This document shows positions 2,039-11,771 of a stretch of DNA of 11,771 nucleotides, in pieces. The translations under genes and the position numbers were made by a program. Below the pieces are notes generated by a model, which ran no database searches, had not been told where the DNA came from, and saw nothing but the letters and a program-made list of their open reading frames with translations. Source of the stretch: Elusimicrobiota bacterium (GTDB lineage: Bacteria > CAYTYR01 > UBA6262); the NCBI GenBank assembly GCA_003153935.1, contig PMCA01000019.1, positions 25,193 through 36,963 of the forward strand, in the 5' to 3' direction. Every line of letters begins with the position of its first letter. Position 1 is the stretch's first letter.

Positions 2039-2050
2039 TTTTGAAAGACC

Positions 2051-2079
2051 TTGACAAAACGGTATTTCCTTGTTATATA
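2051..2079 (+). promoter_or_regulatory. Sigma70-type promoter with extended -10
   Basis: A perfect TTGACA (2051-2056), a 17-bp spacer and TATATA (2074-2079) are preceded by TG at 2071-2072, an extended -10 arrangement. Transcription would begin near 2086, just after rng, and run into the hairpin at 2116-2159 and the small gene at 2179. The match is strong, but the call rests on sequence alone. Confidence 0.72.
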
Positions 2080-2089
2080 TTAATTACAA

Positions 2090-2109
2090 TTTAACCAGCC
2101 ACGGTTAAA
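2090..2109. repeat. Inverted repeat TTTAACC/GGTTAAA near the transcription start
   Basis: TTTAACC (2090-2096) and GGTTAAA (2103-2109) form a perfect 7-bp inverted repeat around a 6-base loop, directly downstream of the predicted start site. It may be a small RNA hairpin or an operator. The core GGTTAA recurs in the palindrome at 2361-2375, which favours a shared protein-binding site, but this is inference. Confidence 0.4.
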
Positions 2110-2115
2110 AAAATT

Positions 2116-2159
2116 AAGTTACTACCATAGGTTGTTTATAGTGGTAACTTTATTTTTTT
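2116..2159 (+). terminator. Intrinsic terminator or attenuator in the leader of the 45-residue gene
   Basis: AAGTTACTAC (2116-2125) pairs over its full length with GTGGTAACTT (2141-2150), with one G-T pair, followed by a T-run at 2151-2159. It lies downstream of the promoter at 2051 and only about 20 bp before the ATG at 2179. It therefore cannot simply end the upstream gene; RNA from this promoter must pass through it, as in an attenuator. Confidence 0.6.
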
Positions 2160-2178
2160 AAGGAAAGCGAGCCACGAA

Positions 2179-5162: not shown

Positions 5163-5250
5163 CCTTGACAAATAAGGGGTTTCTGGTGCCCAGAGCCAGT
5201 CATTAAGTTGCCATTAGGAATCTACATTCTGGCAGCTTTTTTTATTTAAA
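5163..5250 (+). repeat. Leader repeat, copy 1 (promoter -10 deleted)
   Basis: This stretch matches 7912-8060 closely: a TTGACA block with TTTCTGG, then GAGCCAGTCATTAAGTTGCC and the hairpin. It lacks about 64 bp present in copy 2 (about 7936-7999), which hold the TATATT -10 box, the start site and the 5' half of the leader. The junction sits on a short shared GT. The -35 here (5165-5170) therefore has no partner -10. The hairpin part still precedes the LolA-like gene. Confidence 0.7.
5205..5243 (+). terminator. Hairpin with T-run in front of the LolA-like gene
   Basis: AAGTTGCCA (5205-5213) pairs with TGGCAGCTT (5230-5238; one G-T pair), followed by a run of T to 5243. It ends 20 bp before the ATG at 5263, leaving room only for the ribosome site. 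It could end transcription from the lipoprotein unit or act as an attenuator for 5263. It is nearly identical to the hairpin at 8018-8056. Confidence 0.65.
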
Positions 5251-5262
5251 AAGAGGAGAAAA

Positions 5263-5979
5263 ATGAAAAAAATAATAGTTCTGATGACGATGCTGATGAT
5301 GGTAGGGGTAAATGCTTATGCGGATCCTACGCCGGAGCAGATACTACAGAAAGTTTCTGATATGGGAGTACGTATAATTGACATGAAAGCAAATATTGTT
5401 AACACCGCTACCCTGAAAAAGGCTGGGCAGCCTGAGCAGATTATTGGTCAATACAATAGAGTTTACTATCAGAAAAAGCCAAATAAATTAAAAGTAGATA
5501 ATCCTTTGGATGGTTCCTTTTATATTATAAATGGTGATAAGTTATATCTCAAAGAGGCTGGAAAAGATTTGGTAGAAACTCCTAATAATGAGTCATATAT
5601 GAGTCAAATGGACTATATATATAATTTGCCGACATTTATTGCAAACAATGAAATAATAATAGATAGCCAATTTGTTAAAGACGGTTCCCAGTACTACGTT
5701 GTAAAGGCCATTCCAAAAGCAACCCCAAAGCCATATAATGACATGCTCCTAACAGTAAATTATGATCAAGGAACGATATCAAAAATGGAACTATATAACC
5801 TAGGTAATGAAATTGTTCTTTCAAATGAATCGTTGGAATTCACTACCATCGATAGTATTTCTATCCCAAGCAAAACACAGGAAACCAAATACTATGCGGA
5901 TGCCACGGTGGTCACAAATGTTCAGTATAGTAATATTCAATTAAATAAGGGATTAGATGATTCAATATTTACCCCATAG
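5263..5979 (+). CDS. LolA-fold outer-membrane lipoprotein-sorting-like protein
   Basis: The 238-residue exported protein has a signal peptide with likely cleavage after NAYA (residue 20). The mature part reads as the LolA/LolB-like fold: an opening helix (PTPEQILQKVSDMG), then alternating strands (ANIVNTATLKK, GQYNRVYYQKKPNKLKVD, SFYIINGDKLYL) ending in TVVTNVQYSNIQLNKGLDDS. LolA carries lipoproteins across the periplasm. This member lies outside a lol operon and may be a relative with another client, possibly the lipoprotein at 4389, although that is inference. It resembles the 'outer membrane lipoprotein-sorting protein' group rather than canonical E. coli LolA. The ATG at 5263 has GAGGAG at 5253-5258. 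The ribosome site of the next gene overlaps its stop codon, so the pair is coupled. Confidence 0.78.
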   Translation: MKKIIVLMTMLMMVGVNAYADPTPEQILQKVSDMGVRIIDMKANIVNTATLKKAGQPEQIIGQYNRVYYQKKPNKLKVDNPLDGSFYIINGDKLYLKEAGKDLVETPNNESYMSQMDYIYNLPTFIANNEIIIDSQFVKDGSQYYVVKAIPKATPKPYNDMLLTVNYDQGTISKMELYNLGNEIVLSNESLEFTTIDSISIPSKTQETKYYADATVVTNVQYSNIQLNKGLDDSIFTP

Positions 5980-7125: not shown

Positions 7126-7202
7126 TTTTTCAGCTCTATTTCAACCCTGTTTCAAAGATTTAATTGACAAAACCCCCTGAAAGCGATATAAAAGCACCCA
7201 TT

Positions 7203-7961
7203 ATGCCCAGAAGCGCACGTATCTTACCCGAACAGAGTATTTTCCATATCATGGCCCGAGGTAATAACCGGCAGGAGATCTTCAAGGATAAAGAAGACTT
7301 CGAAGCCTACATCTACCTGCTCAAACTCTACAAAGAGCAACACCTCTTCAACCTCTATCACTATTGCCTCATGAACAACCACCTGCACCTGATCCTGGAG
7401 ACCACCCCAAGCACTAATCTCCCCAAGCTGATGAAACAGATCAGCCTCTCTTATGTGCATTACTTTCGCCGGAGATATCGCTACTATGGTCATTTCTGGC
7501 AGGGGAGATACAAGAGCCTGCTGATAGAGAAAGATATATACCTACTCACCTGCGGCAAATACATAGAAATGAACCCTGTCAGAGCCAAGATGGTAACTTC
7601 CCCGGAAGAGCATCCCTGGAGCAGCTACAGGACATATATAGGGCAGACCCAGGATAGACTGGTTACCCTGGATCCTTTGTTCGAAACCCTGGGCAAAACC
7701 GAGAAAGAGAGGCAAGAGAACTACCAGGGCATTCTCATTGAAGAATTGGACCTAAACAAGAGGTATCTGGGCACTAAAACCTTCATCAAAGCCATGGAGG
7801 AGAAGTTTGGGATAGCCAACCAGAGGGGCAAGATAGGCAGGCCGGGGAAGGGAAAAGAGAAACGTCCCCTTTTGGGCGTCCCCTTTTGGGGGAGGCAGGG
7901 ACGGAAAAAACGCTTGACAAATAAGGGTTTTCTGGTATATTTTAGATATACAATTATATAG
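7203..7961 (+). CDS. REP-associated tyrosine transposase, Y1/HUH (IS200-like) family
   Basis: A single-strand DNA transposase-like enzyme that nicks REP sequences with one tyrosine. Counted from the ATG at 7203, the HUH motif is H60-L-H62 (MNNHLHLI) and the likely catalytic tyrosine is Y120 in KYIEMNPVRAKMV. The stretch FWQGRYKSLLIEKD (98-111) and WSSYRTY (139-145) are family hallmarks. MPRSARI is the usual N-terminus, so ATG 7203 is preferred over an upstream TTG at 7164. All catalytic residues are present, so activity is possible. The last roughly 30 residues are not family-like: they are translated from the right inverted repeat, a 14-bp tandem repeat and the promoter of the next operon. 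Removing one 14-bp unit would put a TAA in frame at 7922-7924. Confidence 0.9.
   Translation: MPRSARILPEQSIFHIMARGNNRQEIFKDKEDFEAYIYLLKLYKEQHLFNLYHYCLMNNHLHLILETTPSTNLPKLMKQISLSYVHYFRRRYRYYGHFWQGRYKSLLIEKDIYLLTCGKYIEMNPVRAKMVTSPEEHPWSSYRTYIGQTQDRLVTLDPLFETLGKTEKERQENYQGILIEELDLNKRYLGTKTFIKAMEEKFGIANQRGKIGRPGKGKEKRPLLGVPFWGRQGRKKRLTNKGFLVYFRYTII
7857..7873 (-). repeat. Right inverted repeat of RAYT element
   Basis: GAGAAACGTCCCCTTTT is the exact inverse of 7109-7125. It lies within the 3' end of the transposase frame. Confidence 0.75.
7863..7890 (+). repeat. 14-bp perfect tandem repeat (two copies)
   Basis: CGTCCCCTTTTGGG occurs at 7863-7876 and again at 7877-7890. The first copy overlaps the right inverted repeat. 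Because 14 is not a multiple of three, the second copy shifts the transposase frame and lengthens its C-terminus. Confidence 0.85.
7914..7941 (+). promoter_or_regulatory. Sigma70-type promoter of the riboswitch-controlled operon
   Basis: A perfect TTGACA (7914-7919), a 16-bp spacer and TATATT (7936-7941) carry an extended -10 TGG immediately upstream (7933-7935). Transcription should begin near 7948 and run through two successive hairpins before 8187. The promoter lies within the 3' end of the transposase reading frame. Confidence 0.72.
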
Positions 7962-8017
7962 TCGCCACGTAGTTACTTGCTGTGCGCATTCGGAGAGAGT
8001 GCCTAGAGCCAGTCATT

Positions 8018-8056
8018 AAGTTGCCATTAGGAATTCACATTCTGGCAACTTTTTTA
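8018..8056 (+). terminator. First leader terminator/attenuator
   Basis: AAGTTGCCA (8018-8026) is a perfect 9-bp match to TGGCAACTT (8043-8051), followed by a T-run to 8056. It lies between the promoter at 7914 and the riboswitch at about 8080. Any transcript from that promoter must read past it to reach the operon. Confidence 0.68.
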
Positions 8057-8079
8057 TTTTATAAAGGAATCACCCACTT

Positions 8080-8170
8080 GCAAGGGCAAAACCTGAGTAA
8101 TCAGGCGACGCAAAGCTAAAGGGACCTATCCGGTCAGCCAGCTGCCAAGACATCCAAGGCAGCTGGTTTT
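8080..8170 (+). promoter_or_regulatory. Class I cyclic-di-GMP (GEMM-I) riboswitch with terminator platform
   Basis: The aptamer signature is clear. GGCAAA (8085-8090) opens helix P1; CCTGA-GTAA-TCAGG (8092-8105) is the P1b hairpin capped by a GNRA tetraloop; GACGCAAAGC (8107-8116) is the most conserved GEMM segment; the AAAGGGACCT...GGTCAGCCAG region follows; and TGCC (8143-8146) closes P1. The 3' P1 strand also belongs to the terminator at 8138-8170. Ligand binding should hold TGCC in P1 and block the terminator, so c-di-GMP is predicted to switch the operon on. The riboswitch sits 17 bp before the ATG at 8187 and controls three genes for exported proteins. Confidence 0.85.
8138..8170 (+). 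terminator. Riboswitch expression-platform terminator
   Basis: CCAGCTGCC (8138-8146) pairs perfectly with GGCAGCTGG (8158-8166), followed by TTTT. The 5' arm overlaps the closing strand of the GEMM aptamer, so the two folds exclude each other. The T-run is short, which suggests partial termination. Confidence 0.78.
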
Positions 8171-8186
8171 AATTTAAGGAGAAAAG

Positions 8187-9128
8187 ATGAAAAAAGTAGT
8201 ATTAGCAATAATAATAGGTATTTTATCAATAAACTTGGCCTATGCCGCCGATGTGGATAGAGCTATATCCAAGATTCACAGCAAAGAGACCCGCCAGGAA
8301 GGGGCCAAAGAACTGGAATCTATAGGTCAGGACGCACTACCTCAGGTGCAGGAAATAGCCAAGGACAAGACCAGAACCAAGGAAGAAAGAATAACCGCCC
8401 TTATACTGATGGGCAGGATAGGTAAGGATGCTCCGGTAGAGACTCCGCAGTTACCCAAAGGGAAAAAAATAATGGGGGCTCAGAAAGGCCGTCTAAACAG
8501 ATCCCAAGTTAGAATGCAATTAGAAGATACACTTAAAAATGATGATGACGATCTTACCCGGGAAGCATCAGCTATCGGCTTAGGCCACCTCAATGATCAT
8601 GACGCCATTCCCAAGTTGAAAGAAGCTCTAAATGACCGTAGTGGCAATGTCAGAATGAGAGCAGCTCTGGGATTAGCCAAAATGGGAGATGAAACCGGCA
8701 AAAGACAAGCCTTGGAAGCATTAAAGAGTAAAGATGTCACAGCTCAGCTATTAGCTATCGACGCCCTAGAGGAATATAATGATAAGTCTGTAATAGCCCA
8801 ACTCAGACAGAACCTAAACTCAGACAATGTTTGGACCAGAATAGACTCAATGTTAGCTATAAAGAGAATTGAAGTAAAAGACCTGCAAGGCCAAGAAAGA
8901 CTAAACTACCTGAAGGAAACATTGAAAGACAAGCAATTTGAAGTAAACAACTGGGCTGCTGAAAGTCTTATGAAAGAAATAGTTAATAACACCGAAAATA
9001 GTACTCAAGCGCTAAATATACTGAAAGACAATGCGAAAAACAAGGAAATAGCCGGATGTTATAGCTGCAACAAGATGATCAGATACCTGATGGAGACAGG
9101 TAAGATAACAGAAAGTGAGATACAGTAA
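8187..9128 (+). CDS. Exported HEAT-repeat protein, first gene of the c-di-GMP-controlled operon
   Basis: The 313-residue protein has a signal peptide cleaved probably after LAYA (residue 20). Residues about 22-80 form one or two helical repeats and residues about 110-265 a run of HEAT/PBS-lyase-like repeats (LTREASAIGLGHLNDHDAIP, VRMRAALGLAKMGDE, VTAQLLAIDALEEYND). Such solenoids bind proteins. A short C-terminal CYSC (291-294) could form a disulfide or bind metal. There is no enzyme motif, so a periplasmic scaffold or chaperone is likely. The ATG at 8187 has AAGGAG at 8176-8181. It is the first gene after the GEMM riboswitch and is followed at 36 and 27 bp by two more exported proteins, so the three form an operon whose products may work together outside the cytoplasm. 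Confidence 0.82.
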   Translation: MKKVVLAIIIGILSINLAYAADVDRAISKIHSKETRQEGAKELESIGQDALPQVQEIAKDKTRTKEERITALILMGRIGKDAPVETPQLPKGKKIMGAQKGRLNRSQVRMQLEDTLKNDDDDLTREASAIGLGHLNDHDAIPKLKEALNDRSGNVRMRAALGLAKMGDETGKRQALEALKSKDVTAQLLAIDALEEYNDKSVIAQLRQNLNSDNVWTRIDSMLAIKRIEVKDLQGQERLNYLKETLKDKQFEVNNWAAESLMKEIVNNTENSTQALNILKDNAKNKEIAGCYSCNKMIRYLMETGKITESEIQ

Positions 9129-9164
9129 GCCATGGATTATTCTAAGCAAGAAAGGGGCAACAAG

Positions 9165-9971
9165 ATGAAGTTAAAAGCATTATTTGTTTTCTTCTTTGGA
9201 ATGGTCTTGAGTTTGATAATAGTAGATATAGGGTTGGCCAAGGTTATTAAAACACCCACAATTGAAGGAAAAGTAATAGATGCAACTACAGGTCAGCCTT
9301 TGGAAAATGCAATCGTCTCTTGCACCTGGTTGACAAGTGTTGCTAATTTAGTGGAAAGACATAATGTGGTGTTGTTTCAAGAAACAGTTATAACAGATAA
9401 AGATGGGAATTTCAAAATTAGCTCAAAAAAGACCTGGGAATTGAATGGCCTATTACGAAGCTTCAATGGGATTGATATGAGCGTCTTACATCCTATATAC
9501 GAATCAAAGAATTCTATAAATGATCAGCAAATGAACTGGACCGGCCGAAACTATGAGTCATTAGTAAAACGGGCTGATAGAAATAATGTAGTAGTTATTA
9601 ATATAGGATTAAAAGCCCTAGCTGATATTTTCCAAGTAAAACCTTGGTATGTTGATCATAAGGGGGATTTTGTTAGCAGTATTGTAGATGTAATTAGTAA
9701 TAGAAATAAGAATATAGAACAATATATAAGTAATAAACAAAAGTTTGATAAGGGGCAGTATATTATATTTTTAAATAAAATGAAGGATATTGTTAATAAC
9801 TATGATGATGAGAAATTATGGGGTTTATGGTTAAGTGAATGTAATGAAGGTGTAATTAGCACAATATATAAAGAATGGCCAAAAGAAAGATTTAGTAGGA
9901 GTTTTTCTAAAACTATATTATTGAAAGAGCTAGAAGACTTAGAAGCTGATTTTAATACAAAACTAAAATAA
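9165..9971 (+). CDS. Exported protein with carboxypeptidase regulatory-like (CarboxypepD_reg) domain
   Basis: The 268-residue protein starts with a signal peptide or N-terminal membrane anchor (residues 5-25). Residues 33-86 fit the carboxypeptidase D regulatory-like beta fold: TIEGKVIDATTGQPLENAIV, a spacer, then TDKDGNFKI. The remaining 180 residues are AT-rich, helical-looking and not recognised. These domains usually serve as beta-sandwich adaptors on surface or secreted proteins. The ATG at 9165 is preferred: AAAGGGG (9151-9157) sits 7 bp upstream and the signal peptide begins at once, whereas the in-frame ATG at 9132 adds 11 polar residues without a ribosome site. It is the second gene of the riboswitch-controlled operon. 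Confidence 0.72.
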   Translation: MKLKALFVFFFGMVLSLIIVDIGLAKVIKTPTIEGKVIDATTGQPLENAIVSCTWLTSVANLVERHNVVLFQETVITDKDGNFKISSKKTWELNGLLRSFNGIDMSVLHPIYESKNSINDQQMNWTGRNYESLVKRADRNNVVVINIGLKALADIFQVKPWYVDHKGDFVSSIVDVISNRNKNIEQYISNKQKFDKGQYIIFLNKMKDIVNNYDDEKLWGLWLSECNEGVISTIYKEWPKERFSRSFSKTILLKELEDLEADFNTKLK

Positions 9972-9998
9972 CTATCAGTATAATCATTGAGGACGGGC

Positions 9999-11771
9999 AT
10001 GAGGATAATTCTTAAATCATTATTAATTTTGTTGATAATAAGCGTATCAAAAATAGCTTATTCTCATGAAAATTTAATAGTGCATCCATATATAATATCT
10101 GCTAAAGGGATTCAGCTGCTACAAAACAGTAAATATAATAATAATAATCAATATGATGAACTAGGAACATATTTTAATCTACCCCCATCAGATCTAAATG
10201 CTATTCCTCAAGATCCCAAAAAAGGTACTTTGGGTACAATTAATGAAGACAATAGTAGTATATTAAGTAATGGCGGAGTCCCTGGCTGTTCGTGGTTAAA
10301 TCATTTTTATGTACCTGCAACTTCAAATCATAAGGCTTGGTGGAGTAGCCCCCTTTTCTGGACAACAGATGCATGGAGCTACATTGAACCAGTATGGCAA
10401 GAGGCCATAACTGATTATAAGAACAATGATAAGGACAAGGCCTATTTCAAGTTGGGCCGTTGTTTGCATATCATCGGCGATATGAGTTCGGTACCCCATG
10501 TATATGGGGATGCTCATTTTTCGAACAAGAATGGTTATGAGAGTTGGGTATATGATAATCGAGGAAGTGTGTTTATTAATGCAAATCCCTCAACATTTAC
10601 AGAGGGCATTGATTTCCAAACAATTTTAACCAAATTAGCAGAAAGAACATATAAAGTTGCGCGGATCCAAGGCCATCTTGATCATGCCAATAGGACCTGC
10701 TCGGGTGACATAGCAGAGATGTTCCCAAATAATAATATACAATATATGAAGTATGTACATTGGGATGACCAGTTTGGCCATGAAGTTGCACACGAATGGC
10801 GTATAGCCAATGTCGGAATAGATTATATAACTGACGGGATGGATGCAAATTATGGATATCCGGATTGTTTAAGTGATTGGTGGAGATGTCCGAACCTTTT
10901 TGGAGAAACAGGAGAATATTATTATATAGAAAGCTATCAAAGGGATGTATATCCATATCGTTACAGAATGCACGATGAAAATGGTATACCTTCTATTTTA
11001 ATAGATAATGCAGGCAGTGTTAAATCTCTCTGCGAGTACTGGGCTATAGATGATAAACTAGTTGAAAATGCGATTCAGTACTCGGCTAGTTTAATGAAAT
11101 ACTTCTACGATACTGTAAAGCCACCTAAAGTTGAACAGACCAATCCTGCCAATACTACGCAAAATGTCCCACTTGATCAGACAATAGAAGTGACTTTCGA
11201 CACTGAAATGGATTCAACAATTGATCCTAATTCCTTCTGCTTAATATCCCCCGCATTTTCAGGAACTTGGAAGTGGGGTGCCTCGGCTAAGAAAGTTGTA
11301 TTTACTAGCCTGAATTATTTTTCTCCCTATACTAAATACACCGTCACTATTGGGAAAGAAGCAAAAGGTAAGAATGGCGTTAAAATGGATGATAATTATA
11401 CATTTACTTTCCAAACAGGTGATTCTGCCGGTGGAACTGGAGGAGGAGGCGGAACTGGTGGCACAGGTGGCGGTAATGGGGGTATCCCTAATGGCTCAAC
11501 TCCAGGTGGAGGCCATCCGGATGATAATAATGGGGTGGAAACTGGAACCCAAAATCCTCAATCTGTACAAGGGGATACTAAAGTAGGTATTTTGGACAAT
11601 GGTTTTGGTTATGATACTTACGTATTGTTAAGCGGTTTAAACATAAACACCAGGTTGATTAGGTTAAATGACCTGGATTTAGCTTTCCAGTACCCTGTTT
11701 TAGTAATTCCAACTGCTGGATTATATGGATTAGGGAACTCGCCATCGTTTAGACAAAAACTGGCCGATTAC
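9999..11771 (+). CDS. Secreted zinc phospholipase C/P1-nuclease-like protein with Big_5 Ig-like domain (partial, 3' end outside window)
   Basis: An open frame of 591 codons runs to the window edge. A signal peptide (residues 1-22) is followed by a region like zinc-dependent phospholipase C/S1-P1 nucleases, enzymes that use a tri-zinc site to split phosphodiesters. Candidate ligands are H29, H102 (NHFY), and H157, D161, H167 in LHIIGDMSSVPH, then E181 (GYESW). The usual His four residues before that Glu is Lys177 here; H173 may substitute. Residues about 376-474 form a bacterial Ig-like (Big_5) domain (TNPANTTQNVPLDQTIEVTF). A Gly-rich linker spans 478-505. From 528 a new alpha/beta, amidotransferase-like domain begins (KVGILDNGFG, YPVLVIPTAGLYG) and is cut by the edge. 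GAGGA at 9988-9992 precedes the ATG. It is the third gene under the c-di-GMP riboswitch. Confidence 0.76.
   Translation, partial: MRIILKSLLILLIISVSKIAYSHENLIVHPYIISAKGIQLLQNSKYNNNNQYDELGTYFNLPPSDLNAIPQDPKKGTLGTINEDNSSILSNGGVPGCSWLNHFYVPATSNHKAWWSSPLFWTTDAWSYIEPVWQEAITDYKNNDKDKAYFKLGRCLHIIGDMSSVPHVYGDAHFSNKNGYESWVYDNRGSVFINANPSTFTEGIDFQTILTKLAERTYKVARIQGHLDHANRTCSGDIAEMFPNNNIQYMKYVHWDDQFGHEVAHEWRIANVGIDYITDGMDANYGYPDCLSDWWRCPNLFGETGEYYYIESYQRDVYPYRYRMHDENGIPSILIDNAGSVKSLCEYWAIDDKLVENAIQYSASLMKYFYDTVKPPKVEQTNPANTTQNVPLDQTIEVTFDTEMDSTIDPNSFCLISPAFSGTWKWGASAKKVVFTSLNYFSPYTKYTVTIGKEAKGKNGVKMDDNYTFTFQTGDSAGGTGGGGGTGGTGGGNGGIPNGSTPGGGHPDDNNGVETGTQNPQSVQGDTKVGILDNGFGYDTYVLLSGLNINTRLIRLNDLDLAFQYPVLVIPTAGLYGLGNSPSFRQKLADY

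Follow-up and report, generated by a model that had tools for sequence, protein, structure and literature searches.

The genes of a surface-protein operon in an Elusimicrobiota bacterium are probably switched on by two signals. The operon lies in a stretch of 11,771 nucleotides (contig PMCA01000019.1 of assembly GCA_003153935.1; hereafter the window), and its leader holds two RNA elements, each with its own terminator: a conserved RNA that we call leader 1, followed by a cyclic di-GMP-I (c-di-GMP-I, GEMM-I) riboswitch. We favour, with reasonable but not high confidence, the reading that these are two independent transcription attenuators in series, serving one operon from one promoter. Given that the attenuators are serial, expression would require c-di-GMP as well as read-through of leader 1, which amounts to AND logic. 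A first-pass annotation of this DNA had proposed a c-di-GMP switch for an exported operon beginning at 7914. The riboswitch and the exported genes are retained here, but the promoter serves the separate leader 1, and the riboswitch comes second; the terminator at 8019-8055 and the conserved RNA at 7958-8058, both between promoter and aptamer, had gone unremarked.

One promoter and two elements in series

The promoter nearest to the GEMM-I aptamer lies 135 bp upstream of it (Table 1), with terminator 1 in between, and recurs at the same place in the other full copies of leader 1; transcription would start near 7948. Within 110 nt of the window aptamer we found no promoter-like site, the best candidate matching the consensus at 6 of 12 positions when shuffled sequences mostly reached 7-8. 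Of 23 further GEMM-I matches, spread over five genomes of the phylum, most carry a perfect TTGACA within this distance, whereas in tandem GEMM-I pairs the second unit, like the window aptamer, has no promoter-like TTGACA there. Because a promoter-like site is absent nearby and a full terminator separates promoter and aptamer, the window aptamer is placed like such a second unit; and since the transcript begun at that promoter opens with another conserved leader, which brings an antiterminator and a terminator of its own, the riboswitch ranks second in a tandem. Examined as a candidate tandem riboswitch, the leader yielded two predicted antiterminator/terminator pairs and one promoter.

The same data bear on a simpler account, in which a single-input c-di-GMP ON riboswitch is transcribed from an unrecognised promoter of its own and leader 1 is irrelevant. 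TATAAA at 8060-8065 is a possible -10 box for such a promoter, but it has no -35 element at the right spacing, and a perfect TTGACA stands close to most other GEMM-I matches of the phylum. We consider this account improbable.

With two attenuators in series, RNA polymerase would first transcribe leader 1, whose long imperfect hairpin, closed by pairing between GCCACG and AGUUGC, would sequester the 5' arm of terminator 1. Some factor, be it a ligand, a protein or the rate of transcription, would set whether this antiterminator lasts until polymerase has passed. Transcripts that read through would next form the GEMM-I aptamer. Binding of c-di-GMP would leave the terminator 2 5' arm sequestered in P3, the junction containing C92 and P1, and polymerase would continue into the genes; with c-di-GMP absent, terminator 2 would form.

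Leader 1, a conserved RNA with attenuator anatomy

In transcripts folded without the 3' arm of terminator 1, all five copies carrying the invariant GCCACGUA lengthen the leader 1 hairpin by pairing GC.AC of the invariant GCCACG with GU.GC of the terminator 5' arm (7964-8024, 7965-8023, 7967-8021 and 7968-8020 in the window). These pairs reach probabilities of 0.93-0.99 in four of the five and are present in the minimum free energy fold of the fifth; in a second subtype of leader 1, a GGU/GCC pairing is predicted to have the same effect. Along the folding path of the window, the antiterminator is the best structure up to 8047 and terminator 1 wins at 8050 (-23.6 to -28.0). Judged by these folds, leader 1 has the anatomy of an attenuator, and we infer that its termination is regulated and not set at some fixed partial level.

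The conservation of leader 1 emerged from a BLAST search with 7880-8186, in which the stretch before the aptamer recurred at G000:C1:42770, at window positions 5186-5253 and at G001:C65:9392. A covariance model built from three copies (R1) recovered two further copies in G001 (76.7 and 64.1 bits) and, weakly, the second subtype in G001:C34 and G003:C53 (28.1 and 25.6 bits), and a model built from seven (R2) added a copy in G002:C52 (50 bits). Together, R1 and R2 place leader 1 at nine sites in four genomes of one family. Applied to 386 genomes, among them five of this phylum, R2 matched only in these four genomes, an absence elsewhere that is weak because filters were strict and ten candidates were scored per genome. 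An exact-pattern scan of GTDB contigs matched only the sister genome STB_115 (G001; metagenome-assembled genome, JAQTPL01). No Rfam family matched leader 1 in any copy tested, and on these grounds we rejected its being a decayed GEMM-I, a glycine riboswitch or any other known one; a terminator of the upstream transposase gene was rejected since copies elsewhere have no transposase.

Terminator 1, both stem and U-tract, is conserved among the copies. In a model-fitted alignment of seven related sequences, 9 of 25 pairs had changed on both sides, and standard pairs filled 93.5% of cells, as compared to 84.1% after shuffling and 27-47% in slid controls. Most copies precede operons for exported proteins and sit shortly upstream of the start codons of different operons. 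Giant exported proteins are also encoded downstream of leader 1 at G000:C1 and G001:C14, the latter with a PorV-like protein next. A decayed copy occupies window positions 5164-5246, before a LolA-like gene at 5263; it retains the -35 box and the terminator, but its -10 box is gone and so is half the hairpin.

Leader 1 might instead be a terminator that always leaks, or the gene of a small RNA with its end at 8055, so that GEMM-I would be the only regulated switch and act on the read-through fraction. Terminator 1 is strong on its own, and the decayed copy kept this part. However, the upstream hairpin covaries, every GCCACGUA copy is predicted to pair its invariant bases with the terminator arm, and the copies stand a short way upstream of the start codons of different operons, a position that suits attenuators and not free RNA genes. 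We therefore regard a fixed terminator or free RNA gene as rather unlikely. A more far-reaching proposal, which we make only tentatively and would not call likely, is that leader 1 represents a riboswitch class not described before, or a factor-dependent antitermination element, that governs the surface-protein operons of the family and is here joined in an AND gate to an added GEMM-I. As a new riboswitch class, leader 1 is possible but unproven.

Three further features were noticed around leader 1 and elsewhere. An open reading frame for an IS200-like (Y1) transposase (7164-7961) lies just upstream, the end of its open frame overlapping the leader 1 promoter, and G/C-rich repeats are found at ~7864-7905. 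After the RNase G gene, window positions 2050-2170 contain a short leader composed of a promoter, ACCAGCCACGGUU and a terminator, followed by an open reading frame of ~45 codons. This leader is conserved in four genomes (window; G001:C64:806; G003:C38:27140; G002:C39:4058) and has GCCACG in common with leader 1. Another conserved transcript start, GUCAUAUGAAAGACGU...GCCACGGCGUCAAAGAUAUGAC plus terminator, occurs at G000:C11:72089 (L094), G003:C37:61007 (L095) and G001:C66:59112 (L118) and has no Rfam match.

The GEMM-I riboswitch and its predicted polarity

The assignment of the second element to GEMM-I, which the first-pass annotation had based on a GNRA cap, GACGCAAAGC and UGCC, was borne out by a covariance-model search, in which RF01051 (c-di-GMP-I) matched 8076-8150 on the + strand with 54.8 bits (E 3.5e-10; cut-off 35). 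The P2 loop is GUAA (8097-8100), GACGCAAAGC occupies 8107-8116 and UGCC 8143-8146. Key aptamer bases were compared across 24 GEMM-I matches, in the numbering of the Vibrio cholerae Vc2 aptamer. Because all ligand-contacting bases of the window aptamer are canonical (G20 at 8085, A47 at 8112, C92 at 8145), c-di-GMP is the expected ligand, and the ten GGDEF matches in the genome make c-di-GMP signalling plausible in this organism. Less typical are a compact P1 (CUUG/CAAG), a junction J1/2 shorter by one base and an A-C mismatch at the base of P2 (8091/8106); the aptamer also scores below most other copies of the phylum.

An altered-ligand variant, of the GGC type or recognising 3',3'-cGAMP (c-AMP-GMP), has in its favour that the GGC family RF03167 gave the best E-value in cmscan (48.4 bits, E 4.6e-9). 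This score is nevertheless below the cut-off of 59, position 47 is A and not the G of the RF03167 consensus, and position 20 is G and not the A of cGAMP-type aptamers. We rejected both variants as very improbable, and the GEMM-I part alone is a further member of a known riboswitch class.

Terminator 2 folds with -19.9 kcal/mol (z -4.5), a stability equalled by none of 200 shuffled sequences. Its 5' arm had been described as containing the closing strand of P1. This holds for C8146 alone of the four P1 bases 8146-8149; the other three lie in the terminator loop, and the arm consists mainly of the 3' strand of P3 and the junction with C92. Given that aptamer and terminator 2 are mutually exclusive in the predicted folds, an ON switch, as the first-pass annotation had proposed, is the natural reading of the geometry. 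On visual inspection, several further GEMM-I copies from the phylum (for example G000:C33, G001:C10, G004:C147 and G004:C190) show a similar overlap between the aptamer 3' strand and a terminator. Over the whole leader, the terminator fold (-35.9) is favoured over the aptamer fold (-16.9 to -18.3), and the ligand must therefore win during transcription.

Several points weigh against a two-input gate. Among the GCCACGUA copies, the four antiterminator pairs in competition with terminator 1 never vary and hence carry no covariation, and the pair counts given above come from an alignment fitted by the model itself. No ligand or trans-acting factor is known for leader 1, which may be a fixed leaky terminator. 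The A-C mismatch, the shortened J1/2 and the short P1 may reduce the affinity of the aptamer for c-di-GMP, and a promoter unlike the sigma-70 consensus may lie between 8056 and 8076. Finally, the combination of leader 1 and GEMM-I was seen once.

The operon, its history and related tandem systems

Downstream of GEMM-I follow three consecutive genes with hydrophobic N-termini, in line with the three exported genes annotated before. The HEAT assignment of gene 1 was confirmed, and the other two domain calls remained below threshold: the CarboxypepD_reg-like domain of gene 2 reached 24 bits with PF13620 (cut-off 32.3), and PF00882 (Zn-dependent phospholipase C) reached 18.4 and 19.9 bits on gene 3 (cut-off 26.8). 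Gene 3 is cut by the window and runs to the end of the contig, with at least 4,095 codons (L005 with L133, G000:C24:35179-47465). Only about 350-380 N-terminal residues resemble the phospholipase, with an E-value of 4e-4 against PDB 8cqm (a phospholipase C) by profile, and H..D, H, H and E are conserved in both homologs; an AlphaFold prediction of this part from one sequence was discarded (mean pLDDT, the predicted local confidence score, 34.7). The remainder contains Big_5, Ig-like, CARDB, discoidin (F5/8C), propeller-like and OmpL47-type domains, of which discoidin, CARDB and OmpL47-type lie beyond the window. By eye, a fold like that of class I amidotransferases is suggested for residues 528-600. 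The earlier view of a phospholipid or nucleic-acid processing system thus appears weak. Nor does the impression hold that these genes are no textbook c-di-GMP targets: in Bacillus thuringiensis, a c-di-GMP riboswitch controls a collagen adhesion protein (PMC4933901), and by analogy a giant surface protein is an ordinary kind of target.

Table 1. Features of the operon and its leader, in window coordinates.
Feature	Position	Strand	Description
Promoter	7914-7941	+	TTGACA 7914-7919, 16 nt, TATATT 7936-7941; 11 of 12 consensus matches
Leader 1	7958-8058	+	Long imperfect hairpin (antiterminator) and terminator 1; model R1 103.3 bits; candidate new cis-regulatory RNA
Invariant GCCACGUA	7964-7971	+	Unchanged in five copies of leader 1
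Terminator 1	8019-8055	+	AGUUGCCA 8019-8026 / UGGCAACU 8043-8050, U6 tract to 8055; from folds
AAAGGA	8063-8068	+	Probable relic of the ribosome-binding site after leader 1, from comparison with G001:C65, G000:C1 and window 5250-5260
GEMM-I aptamer	8076-8150	+	P1 8077-8080/8146-8149; P2 8092-8096/8101-8105; P3 8114-8126/8132-8143
Terminator 2	8136-8170	+	AGCCAGCUGCC 8136-8146 / GGCAGCUGGUU 8158-8168, then UUAAUUU
Ribosome-binding site	8176-8181	+	AAGGAG; from sequence
Gene 1	8187-9128	+	Exported HEAT-repeat protein, 313 amino acids; HEAT_2 79.3 bits
Gene 2	9132-9971	+	Exported, 279 amino acids from 9132 (start at 9168 also possible); counterpart at the same place in G001:C65
Gene 3	9987-11771	+	Starts at TTG 9987 or at ATG 9999; encodes the N-terminal part of the surface protein (at least 4,095 amino acids)

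The HEAT gene (protein 81% identical), gene 2 and the giant gene also stand together in the sister genus (G001:C65). There, leader 1 is followed directly by the ribosome-binding site, with no GEMM-I; in the window, an aptamer-terminator cassette (~8069-8170) separates terminator 1 from the ribosome-binding site. Since other leader 1 copies have no GEMM-I, a gain is the simpler history, and as far as five genomes can show, GEMM-I at this locus seems to be a later addition downstream of an older attenuator.

The window copy shares with c-di-GMP-I riboswitches (RF01051) the aptamer fold, G20/A47/C92, the GNRA-capped P2, a terminator over the 3' strands of P3 and P1 and the predicted ON geometry, and differs from them in the shortened J1/2, the A-C mismatch at the P2 base and the absence of its own promoter. 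Heterologous tandems of glycine and c-di-GMP-I (six cases, AND) and of adenosylcobalamin and c-di-GMP-I riboswitches (two cases) have been described, as have 347 GEMM-I doublets (PMC9481103). The heterologous tandems likewise place two serial attenuators, each with a terminator, before one operon, GEMM-I being second; the first element of the window, in contrast, is in no Rfam family. With the GEMM-I doublets, one of which is in the same genome (G000:C8), the window shares a promoterless second unit dependent on read-through of the first, but its first unit is not GEMM-I. What is new here, as far as sequence comparison goes, is thus this first tandem element, outside any described family. The Bc2 riboswitch of B. 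thuringiensis also precedes a large surface protein gene but is a single element from another phylum, and its gene was reported to be strongly repressed in the parent strain (PMC4933901).

GEMM-I doublets before a subtilase operon occur in four of four genomes of the family (G000:C8:20248-20340, L006; G001:C60:32521-32612, L065; G002:C132:4466-4560, L068; G003:C24:15207-15301, L067). In each pair, position 20 of the first aptamer is C (CGCAAA), with A47 kept, and that of the second is G; the C20 aptamers are possibly a variant with altered ligand.

Most riboswitches are solitary, and the rare tandems of unlike switches show how bacteria compute with RNA. Given that in the sister genus a single element precedes the same operon, the step by which a second input was added can be traced here. 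Leader 1 is a concrete orphan RNA, and its signal is worth seeking because the genes it precedes are partly of the same kinds as those under c-di-GMP control in the phylum.

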